Origin: a bacterium
GTDB lineage: Bacteria; UBA4055
Direction of reading: 5' to 3'
Length of the DNA stretch: 5,262 nucleotides
Assembly: GCA_029559475.1 (NCBI GenBank)
Contig: JAKQBN010000068.1
Location: 1-5,262, forward strand
This document shows positions 1 to 4,152 of this stretch, piece by piece. A program made the translations under genes and the position numbers. The notes beneath the pieces are model-generated. The model made no database searches and was not told where the DNA came from. It saw only the letters and a list, made by a program, of their open reading frames with translations. Each line of letters starts with the position of its first letter. Position 1 is the first letter of the stretch.

Positions 1-727
1 CGTTCAGCGAAATATTTTCAAAAAGGTAAATCGATAAAAATTTTCCGGATAATATTCCAAAAAATATAATAGATGCAAGTTGAAAATAAATTCTATACCT
101 GTTTAATTTCTTTACGAATAATGCTATTATAGATATTAATAGAATAAAATATAGAACCGGTGAAAGCTTATTTTCAATCCACTTTAGAGAAACCTTCTGC
201 TCAGTATTTTCATATTCGATCTTTCCGGTATAAATTGCTGATCTTTTTATTAAAATATCTCTAACTGCAGAAGTGGTGTAAGTCGCTCCGGTAACAGCAT
301 CGACCTTCAGTTCTGAAACTTCAGCAATGGTTTTTCCATTCCATGAACCGAAAAATTTAATATTTTTCAATCCTTCTATCCAGGAAGAAGTTTCATTATT
401 CGGCAGGATACCAAGACCTATAATTTTCTCATCGTTATCAGCAGCTATGACCAAAGGTAAAGGACCTCCATAGCCTGTAAAATTATCACAGTAGGGAGTT
501 GTCAGAATGAATTTGCCGACGATATTCATCTCTCCATCATAAACAAGCGACCACTTATTTATATAATTCACTTCTTCGACCGATGCTGCCGAGGGGATCA
601 TTTCCTGAATGTAGGGGATAAGATCATTCGTCCTGAAATCGAATTGTTCCTTCACTTCTCGCTTTGAAAAAAATACAACTGCCGATAATGCTATTATTAC
701 GGGTATTTTCCACAGATATCTTTTCAA
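1..727 (-). CDS. Membrane-anchored FMN-binding domain protein, partial (3' end beyond window)
   Basis: The frame is open for 242 codons from a TTG at 727 to the window edge, with no stop or frameshift. Residues 2-7 are basic/aromatic (KRYLWK) and about 8-20 are hydrophobic, forming a signal anchor. A soluble, presumably extracytoplasmic domain follows. It contains GYGGPL (about 85-90), ILPNNET (about 107-113) and DAVTGAT (143-149). The last matches the Dxx[S/T]GA[S/T] motif at which ApbE attaches FMN covalently, making Thr149 the likely site. Helices at about 190-206 and 213-235 follow. This order resembles NosR-like and RnfG/NqrC-like proteins, and NosR-like members often continue into a polyferredoxin-type membrane domain with 4Fe-4S clusters; that part, if present, lies outside the window. 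The inferred role is electron transfer at the membrane. TTG is chosen because the in-frame stop (TAA) is only 14 codons upstream, no ATG or GTG lies between, and AAGGCGG sits 6 bases before it. The gene is more AT-rich than the pst genes. The FMN-domain call is firm; the specific pathway is unknown. Confidence 0.85.
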   Translation of the reverse strand, partial: MKRYLWKIPVIIALSAVVFFSKREVKEQFDFRTNDLIPYIQEMIPSAASVEEVNYINKWSLVYDGEMNIVGKFILTTPYCDNFTGYGGPLPLVIAADNDEKIIGLGILPNNETSSWIEGLKNIKFFGSWNGKTIAEVSELKVDAVTGATYTTSAVRDILIKRSAIYTGKIEYENTEQKVSLKWIENKLSPVLYFILLISIIALFVKKLNRYRIYFQLASIIFFGILSGKFLSIYLFENISLN

Positions 728-753
728 AAAAAACCGCCTTTTAATTAAGGCGG
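726..753 (-). terminator. Intrinsic terminator of the pst-phoU operon
   Basis: On the minus strand CCGCCTT (753-747), a 6-base loop AATTAA, and AAGGCGG (740-734) form a perfect 7-bp stem, followed at once by eight T (733-726). It begins 40 bases after the phoU stop codon. This is a canonical rho-independent terminator for transcription from phoU. On the plus strand the stem is not followed by a T tract, so it should work in one direction only. Its T tract overlaps the TTG start of the next gene. Confidence 0.9.
734..740 (-). promoter_or_regulatory. Shine-Dalgarno-like site of the FMN protein gene, inside the terminator stem
   Basis: On the minus strand AAGGCGG, one mismatch from AAGGAGG, is followed by six T and the TTG start at 727. 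The same seven bases form the 3' arm of the phoU terminator, so the site would be base-paired in any read-through transcript. It supports the TTG start because no other start codon has a comparable site. Its use is inferred from position and spacing only. Confidence 0.5.
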
Positions 754-754
754 A

Positions 755-783
755 ATTATATGGTATTTACAAACAAAAGACAA
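755..783 (-). promoter_or_regulatory. Candidate sigma-70-type promoter for the FMN protein gene
   Basis: On the minus strand TTGTCT (783-778; four of six matches to TTGACA) is separated by exactly 17 bases from a perfect TATAAT (760-755). Transcription would start about 6-9 bases further on, near 746-749, inside or at the edge of the terminator loop. Such a transcript would have a leader of only about 20 bases. The whole promoter lies between the phoU stop and the terminator. The region is AT-rich, so a chance match is possible. Confidence 0.5.
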
Positions 784-792
784 GGATAAAGA

Positions 793-1446
793 TCATCCCT
801 GATGCCTGACAATAGTTCCGTTTATCATATACACGACATCTTCGGCTATATTTGTCGCGTGATCTCCGATCCTTTCCAGAGCTCTGGATATAGTGAGATA
901 CTGCGATAGGATCTCAAAGCTGTTCGGCTTGTCTTTTAAAGCATCTCCCACTTTTTTGAATACGTTCTTGTGAAGTTCATCTATCTCCTCATCAGCCTCC
1001 ATTACAGCTTCGGCTTTCTTTTCATCCAGCTCTATAAGCGCGTCTATGCTGTTCTTGACCATTAGTAGAGATCTTTCGCACATAAGCGTAAAGTCAAAGA
1101 CGGGATTTTTCTGATCAAGTTCGATTATCCTGACGCTTCTTTCCGCGATATTGACCGCTAGATCACCGATCCTCTCGAGATCGGAATTGATCTTGAGCAT
1201 CGAAATAATAAATCTCAGATCAATAGCTACGGGCTGATATAGTGCAAGGAGCTTTAGACACTCTTCCTCGATCTCTATTTCCAGCCTGTCTATATCATTA
1301 TCTTTTTCGATCACCTGCATTGCAAGTTCTTTATCGTTCTCATATACCGATCTGACCGCGTTCCTGACATCCTCTTCGACAAGAGCGCAGTACTCATAAA
1401 ATCTTTTTTTAAGTCTAATTAATTCAGCCTGTAAATACTTTGACAT
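793..1446 (-). CDS. phoU: Phosphate signalling and transport regulator PhoU
   Basis: The 217-residue product has the usual PhoU length and consists of two homologous three-helix-bundle domains. Each carries the family metal-binding signature: ERIGD 91-95 with NIAE 99-102, and ERIGD 191-195 with NIAED 199-203, exactly 100 residues apart. The acidic clusters bind metal ions (iron or manganese in characterised homologues). No signal peptide or membrane segment is seen, so the protein is cytoplasmic. In known systems PhoU links the Pst transporter to the PhoR kinase, silences the Pho regulon when phosphate is plentiful, and limits phosphate uptake. The ATG at 1446 is well supported: AGGAGG (1457-1452) lies five bases upstream and overlaps the pstB TAG stop, implying translational coupling. 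It is the last gene of the operon, with an intrinsic terminator just downstream. Both metal motifs are intact and nothing looks truncated. Confidence 0.96.
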   Translation of the reverse strand: MSKYLQAELIRLKKRFYEYCALVEEDVRNAVRSVYENDKELAMQVIEKDNDIDRLEIEIEEECLKLLALYQPVAIDLRFIISMLKINSDLERIGDLAVNIAERSVRIIELDQKNPVFDFTLMCERSLLMVKNSIDALIELDEKKAEAVMEADEEIDELHKNVFKKVGDALKDKPNSFEILSQYLTISRALERIGDHATNIAEDVVYMINGTIVRHQG

Positions 1447-3106: not shown

Positions 3107-4092
3107 ACGGCTCTGCCTCCCGTAATTGCATATTTTCTCTGGATCCAGGCTGCGACAAGATTAACCACAAGCGATATTAAGAAAAGATAGAATCCCACGG
3201 CCATAAGGCTGGCGAGATGAATGTTTTCGACGGCTTCCCTGAACTCGTTCACGATGACCGATGCCATTGTTGAACCCGGCCCGAATATAGTGAAGGGGAG
3301 AGTGTTCTTGTTTCCGATAAGCATGGCTACAGCCATTGTTTCACCGATAGCTCTTCCGAGGGAGAGCATCGCTCCGGCCAAAATTCCGCCTCTTGAGTAC
3401 GGGATAACCGCCATCCTGATGACCTCCCACTTCGTAGCTCCGAGTGCTGAAGCGGCTTCCCTCTGTTCCTTGGGGACCATTCTGAAAGAATCGCAAGCCA
3501 GAGCGGTAGTAAAAGGGATTATCATTATTGTAAGGATTATCGTGGCGGTAAGCATTCCGTAACCTGCGGGATTACCAAGAATCGGAGTCAGTGTCGGCGC
3601 ATTTTCAAGCGACCACAGATATACAGGCATATAGACCGAATCCCTTACCCAAGGTGTGAATATAAATATTCCCCAGATCCCTATTACTACGGACGGTACA
3701 GCAGCAATTAGATTAACAAGGTTTTCAATTATATATCCGAGCCATTTAGGCGCATATTCAGCCGTGAATATCGCTATAGCTACCGCCGGCAGAAATGACA
3801 GAGCCAGCGCGGCAAGACTGGTCACTAAAGTTCCGACTATGAACGGCCATGTTCCGAACTCCATTGAAATAGCCGCATCCCAGACCCGTCCGGTCATAAA
3901 TCCGAAGAACCCGAATTTGCTTATAGCTTCGGTTCCGCTGAAATAAAGAGAAACGGCCATAGCTATAGTAGTAAAAATAACTATAAACCCTAAAATGAAA
4001 ATGCCGTACGCGAAAATTCTGTCACCCAGCCATCCGTATAAAGCTGAGGGCGACAGACTGATCTTTTTATTTGTCAAATTATTTCCTGTCAT
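3103..4092 (-). CDS. pstC: Phosphate ABC transporter permease PstC
   Basis: The 329-residue product (from ATG 4092) is the second channel subunit and has the usual PstC length. Six membrane segments are likely at about 27-51, 83-108, 121-146, 180-199, 236-258 and 294-315. The EAA loop REAASALGATKWEVIRMAVIP (split here as REAASALGAT, 211-220, then KWEVIRMAVIP, 221-231) contacts PstB. GRAIGET (246-252) carries the conserved membrane Arg/Glu pair. The frame is also open upstream to a GTG at 4131, but that codon lies inside a strong intergenic hairpin, has no good ribosome site, and adds an atypical 13 residues (MPVLLYF...). ATG 4092 has AGGGAG ending five bases before it and gives a basic, polar N-terminus (MTGNNLTNKK), so I prefer it. 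The stop overlaps the pstA start by four bases. Translation of this gene is separated from pstS by the hairpin, which probably sets it below pstS. Confidence 0.95.
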   Translation of the reverse strand: MTGNNLTNKKISLSPSALYGWLGDRIFAYGIFILGFIVIFTTIAMAVSLYFSGTEAISKFGFFGFMTGRVWDAAISMEFGTWPFIVGTLVTSLAALALSFLPAVAIAIFTAEYAPKWLGYIIENLVNLIAAVPSVVIGIWGIFIFTPWVRDSVYMPVYLWSLENAPTLTPILGNPAGYGMLTATIILTIMIIPFTTALACDSFRMVPKEQREAASALGATKWEVIRMAVIPYSRGGILAGAMLSLGRAIGETMAVAMLIGNKNTLPFTIFGPGSTMASVIVNEFREAVENIHLASLMAVGFYLFLISLVVNLVAAWIQRKYAITGGRAV

Positions 4093-4117: not shown

Positions 4118-4152
4118 AAAAGGACGGGCACCCTTTACAGGCGCCCATCCCC
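4118..4152 (-). terminator. Intercistronic hairpin with short U tract (attenuator or 3' stabiliser) between pstS and pstC
   Basis: On the minus strand GGATGGGCGCC (4150-4140), a 7-base loop, and GGTGCCCGTCC (4132-4122) form an 11-bp stem with two G-U wobbles. Two further G-U pairs at the base (4152-4151 with 4121-4120) are possible. It is followed by TTTTATACTTTT. The stem is GC-rich but the T tract is broken, so termination is probably partial. It starts about 25 bases after the pstS stop. It would allow more PstS than PstCAB, either by partial termination or by protecting the pstS 3' end, as is common for binding-protein genes in ABC operons. The structure is seen in the sequence; the role is inferred. 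Confidence 0.7.

Follow-up and report, generated by a model that had tools for sequence, protein, structure and literature searches.

How can a gene be expressed when its start codon lies in the T tract of what appears to be the terminator of the preceding operon? The question is raised by contig C5, whose entire 5,262-bp sequence (the window) was analyzed. The contig belongs to G000, a metagenome-assembled genome (2.28 Mb, 92% complete) of an uncultured organism whose closest named relatives are Candidatus Delongbacteria. In the window, a pst operon ending in phoU is directly followed by a flavoprotein gene, and a promoter, a terminator-like hairpin, a Shine-Dalgarno (SD) sequence and a TTG start codon are superimposed in 59 bases. 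According to the original prediction, RNA reading through from phoU would be mostly terminated and its ribosome site paired, while RNA from the local promoter would escape both.

Composition of the junction

All these elements are found in the sequence, on the minus strand, where they had been placed (Table 1), and the exact combination of TATAAT with CCGCCTT...AAGGCGG occurs once in the genome. The hairpin has a 7-bp stem with five G-C pairs and a loop of 6 nt, T8 follows immediately, and the energy of the hairpin alone is -10.5 kcal/mol, so that the terminator is confirmed in its stem and T tract. The pairing of the 3' arm with the anti-SD sequence is stronger than that of 80% of 143 genes tested and of 96% of in-gene controls. 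With just 6 nt from the hairpin to the start codon, a promoter cannot fit downstream of the hairpin and would have to precede or overlap it. The weaker hairpin at the end of phoU may serve as an additional terminator for polymerase arriving from upstream.

Table 1. Features of the phoU-flavoprotein junction and the flanking genes (positions in the window).
Feature	Position	Strand	Basis or remark
pst operon (pstS-pstC-pstA-pstB-phoU), then flavoprotein gene		minus, C5	
phoU, last gene of the pst operon	793..1446	minus	PF01895, E 6e-49; TIGR02135, 210.6 bits (cut-off 130)
Weaker hairpin resembling a terminator, covering the stop codon of phoU and the first -35 bases	781..801	minus	sequence, folds
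-35 hexamer TTGTCT	778..783	minus	sequence scan and weighted promoter model
-10 hexamer TATAAT, 17-nt spacer to -35	755..760	minus	sequence scan and weighted promoter model
Terminator stem, 5' arm CCGCCTT	747..753	minus	sequence, folding
Expected transcription start, first purine A746	746..749	minus	inferred from the distance to -10
Terminator loop AATTAA	741..746	minus	sequence
Terminator stem, 3' arm AAGGCGG, also the SD sequence	734..740	minus	anti-SD pairing, -8.3 kcal/mol
T8 tract of the terminator	726..733	minus	sequence
TTG start codon	725..727	minus	two T common to TTG and the T8 tract
FMN_bind and Fer4_5 membrane protein (flavoprotein) gene	2..727	minus	starts at TTG 727, runs off C5

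The contig terminates at the pstS start, and the region upstream of pstS lies outside it. Between pstS and pstC, a strong 14-pair hairpin with a T-rich tail is found on the minus strand (4120-4152); it likely lowers transcription into the membrane genes.

The flavoprotein gene continues on contig C21, which shares an exact 141-bp overlap with C5 (window positions 1-141 are identical to the end of C21, L059 15824-15964), and encodes ca. 384 amino acids in total. The protein has an FMN_bind domain, and its 4Fe-4S portion (Fer4_5), which contains two CxxxCP motifs, is encoded on C21. The gene that follows on C21 is convergent, which suggests transcription of the flavoprotein gene as a single unit. 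The predicted TTG start is well supported by comparison with the orthologs L005-L007 (MKRYLLKIPVIIAF) in three genomes of the family that belong to another genus, since these place an ATG at exactly that codon.

Strength of the predicted local promoter

By itself, a simple consensus scan does not speak for the promoter, as it yields 10 promoter-like sites in the window and shuffled sequence yields equally many (11.0 expected). A weighted sigma70 model, based on E. coli-like frequencies that we supplied and that may not fit the Delongbacteria phylum, assigns the site a score of 11.6, the highest within the surrounding 400 bases. This score is reached once per 34,597 genome positions, in 2.3% of 1,037 ORF upstream regions and in 16 of 2,000 shuffles (0.8%) of the 65-nt intergenic region. 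By the weighted model, the promoter proposed originally is thus above chance.

Predicted folding of read-through and locally started RNA

In folds of the read-through RNA from phoU, the SD sequence is paired, with an unpaired probability of at most 0.11. Opening it would cost 9.5-11.8 kcal/mol, and opening the ribosome footprint 13.1-17.2 kcal/mol. For RNAs starting at 749, 748 or 746, the predicted SD cost is ∼0.2-2.6 kcal/mol (5.6 at one RNA length), and that of the footprint is 3.5-9.1 kcal/mol. Once ∼70 or more coding bases are present, the start codon of the locally started RNA is predicted to pair weakly, at 3.7-4.0 kcal/mol, with early coding sequence. Hence, the predicted difference between the two RNAs is borne out in the folds for the SD sequence, masked by 10-12 kcal/mol in the one and freed in the other, while the ribosome site as a whole, with its weakly paired start codon, would be freer in the local RNA, yet incompletely open.

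Proposed mechanism

The best explanation overall, to which we give somewhat better than an even chance, is that the terminator of pst-phoU and the local promoter nested in it insulate the flavoprotein gene at two levels. The hairpin (753-734) with T8 would be the terminator of the pst-phoU operon, and the promoter (783-755) would drive the flavoprotein gene, its transcripts beginning around 746-749, within the 5' arm or immediately after it. Because such an RNA would lack a working hairpin, it would neither terminate nor mask its SD sequence. RNA coming from phoU would contain the whole hairpin, so that most of it would stop at 733-726 and the leaked remainder would have its SD sequence paired. 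A single element would thereby separate the gene from the upstream operon both in transcription and in translation, and it would have arisen when the flavoprotein gene came to adjoin phoU.

This explanation builds on what the analysis shows: the elements and their order, the score of the promoter, the supported start codon, the folding energies and the separate leader in relatives. From these we infer where transcription starts, that it terminates in the T tract, that the SD sequence is masked and that the arrangement is of any benefit. The pairing of the start codon with early coding RNA, the presence of the junction in one genome, the rarity of nested promoters and the E. coli-like frequencies behind the promoter score count against it.

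Regulation of the pst operon by phosphate in G000 is presumed from what is known of the family. No PhoB-type match above the TIGR02154 cut-off was found in G000, a cut-off that only two of 14 controls exceed. In G002, a genome of the same genus, and only there, TAACA-like repeats spaced ∼11 nt apart and resembling Pho boxes precede pstS (L057, contig C142, ∼3360-3430).

History of the junction

Full-length flavoprotein orthologs, 50-52% identical, occur in two other genera (five genomes), and a shorter match lies at the end of a contig in G008. In none of the relatives compared is the flavoprotein gene directly behind phoU; this junction was seen in G000 only. In G005, a TPR gene and a gene for a 111-aa protein, in this order, separate phoU from the flavoprotein gene, and G008 keeps these two together with the flavoprotein gene. 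In G002, phoU is followed by a convergent gene and then by the TPR and 111-aa genes. The absence of the flavoprotein gene from G002 may be an assembly gap, as these two genes run up to the contig end. The 111-aa gene was not found in G000, where the best TPR homologue is located elsewhere. The possibility of a conserved junction was rejected, given the convergent gene behind phoU in G002 and a different terminator and a TPR gene there in G005 and G009. No relatives of the flavoprotein were found in a search of viral contigs.

G005 and G009 have a flavoprotein leader in common although the genes preceding it differ. A region with TATAAT is common to G012 and G007, upstream of the gene, which there lies behind a divergent gene or a spacer. 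These comparisons support the view that in relatives the flavoprotein gene is an autonomous unit with its own leader, and a local promoter would therefore be expected in G000. The junction itself is, judging from the gene orders, a lineage-specific rearrangement.

Terminators next to start codons in the genome

Behind genes in 1.53 Mb of G000, we found 116 terminator-like hairpins, of which 112 were scored for promoters. A co-directional start follows within 40 nt at 27 and within 14 nt at eight of these 112, counts that depend on simple, unannotated ORF calls, and the histogram of terminator-to-start distances peaks at 0-40 nt. Terminators abutting starts are a habit of this genome, and the junction in the window is not unique in this respect.

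Strong nested promoters were found at 2/27 terminators abutting starts and 0/85 others (rank test, p = 0.16). The -10 element overlies the stem in 14/30 versus 19/60 cases, which is not a significant enrichment in G000 (p = 0.17). With neither test being significant in G000, a genome-wide class of nested promoters was rejected. G005 gave p = 0.02 on five sites only, which is too few. The broader idea that starts behind terminators in Delongbacteria routinely have promoters with the start point within the hairpin, which would stop upstream RNA, mask the ribosome site of leaked RNA and be disarmed locally, seems to us improbable.

A comparable arrangement occurs on the minus strand of L097 (∼15078-15098), where the ATG of a gene falls within a terminator's T tract and AAGGG within its 3' arm. 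Its relatives keep the coding region and have different upstream DNA up to the start codon, as is the case at the junction in the window.

Alternative explanations

The insulating overlap could be a side effect of compaction. Both the promoter and the terminator would work, their overlap would be an accident of the rearrangement, and the terminator alone would insulate the gene, the masking of the SD sequence being unselected. This alternative is doubtful, though it has to be taken seriously. It agrees with the uniqueness of the junction to G000, where the genes are directly adjacent in place of the order with the TPR and 111-aa genes seen in G005 and, in part, in G008, and with the commonness of terminators near starts. 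However, it leaves aside that a very strong promoter is placed exactly so that RNA would start within the stem, and that a promoter anywhere upstream would have been halted by the hairpin.

A second alternative is that the terminator is leaky and the promoter match is unused, so that the flavoprotein gene, as the distal member of the pst operon, would depend on read-through and have lowered expression. Relevant here is the second-best nested case in G000, at L153:19417-19460 (contig C25, ∼59417), where the terminator ACCGTCCG..CGGACGGT stands 16-20 nt before a gene start, too close for a promoter to fit between them. Together with L153, the loci L189, L190 and L170 place this terminator in three genomes of the genus and in another genus. 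Both other genomes of the genus keep it but lack the -10 element, and in G005 the stem is 20 nt before a start; this makes partial read-through probable in the family. The alternative retains weight, as some genes behind abutting terminators probably live on read-through. For the flavoprotein gene itself we nevertheless consider it unlikely, given the promoter score, the orthologs with their own leaders, and the SD sequence that would be paired in read-through RNA.

The geometry of the junction, with its short leader, also resembles that of a regulated attenuator, in which RNA starting upstream of 753 would keep the hairpin and an unknown factor would decide between stop and go. This is very improbable. 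An Rfam search of the junction for known cis-regulatory RNAs gave no family at the gathering score (the best match had 24 bits versus 79 required), no competing antiterminator helix is prominent in the folds, and the start predicted from TATAAT falls within the stem.

Finally, an assembly artefact joining genes that are not true neighbours is conceivable in a fragmented metagenome assembly with a contig this short that ends in an overlap with C21, but it is hardly credible, as the junction lies 725 bp from the contig end and outside repeats, and the two genes are near neighbours in G005.

Comparison with known systems

Protection of a gene from outside transcription at two levels is known from mobile elements. 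Tn10 was reportedly found by Davis et al. in 1985 to be protected in this way from outside promoters, and Beuzon et al. are said to have described protection of IS200 from external promoters in 1999. The insulation proposed here would be similar to that of Tn10/IS10 and IS200 in having two levels. Unlike these transposase genes, the gene at the phoU junction is an ordinary chromosomal FMN_bind and Fer4_5 gene, and a single hairpin would do both jobs.

In the phage T4 late genes I-TevI, segB, soc and e, as well as in mobE of Aeh1, a promoter is located inside the hairpin that sequesters the ribosome-binding site (PMC2988022). There, the ribosome site is paired in transcripts that come from promoters upstream, while those from the local promoter start with too little of the 5' side left for the hairpin to form (PMC2988022). 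Similarly, the folds of the phoU read-through RNA have the ribosome site paired, and a local start would omit the 5' arm, provided that it lies where the position of TATAAT places it. By contrast, the T4 switch is one of timing by a late promoter, while the promoter here would be of the sigma70 type in a bacterial chromosome. Moreover, the T4 hairpins are not described as terminators (PMC2988022), whereas the hairpin here would be the intrinsic terminator of the upstream operon.

Bifunctional terminators that also sequester a ribosome-binding site have been proposed in bacteria, with 18 candidates less than 15 nt from a start codon in E. coli, and none had been demonstrated as of 2010 (PMC2965389). 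The phoU junction would likewise use one hairpin as a terminator and as a mask of the ribosome site. Unlike those candidates, which are attenuators in the gene's own leader, the local RNA here is predicted to be free of the hairpin. If the proposed insulation is true, it would provide for a bacterial gene the combination reported as undemonstrated in 2010 (PMC2965389), in the form of an insulator of just 59 bases separating two chromosomal operons, its single inverted repeat being both terminator and SD mask and the local promoter disarming both. It would also mean that starts without promoter room behind terminators, which are many in G000, need not belong to read-through genes. The logic of the switch is known from the T4 late genes and Tn10; by analogy with them, one hairpin acting as terminator and SD mask in front of a chromosomal gene would be a variant of it.
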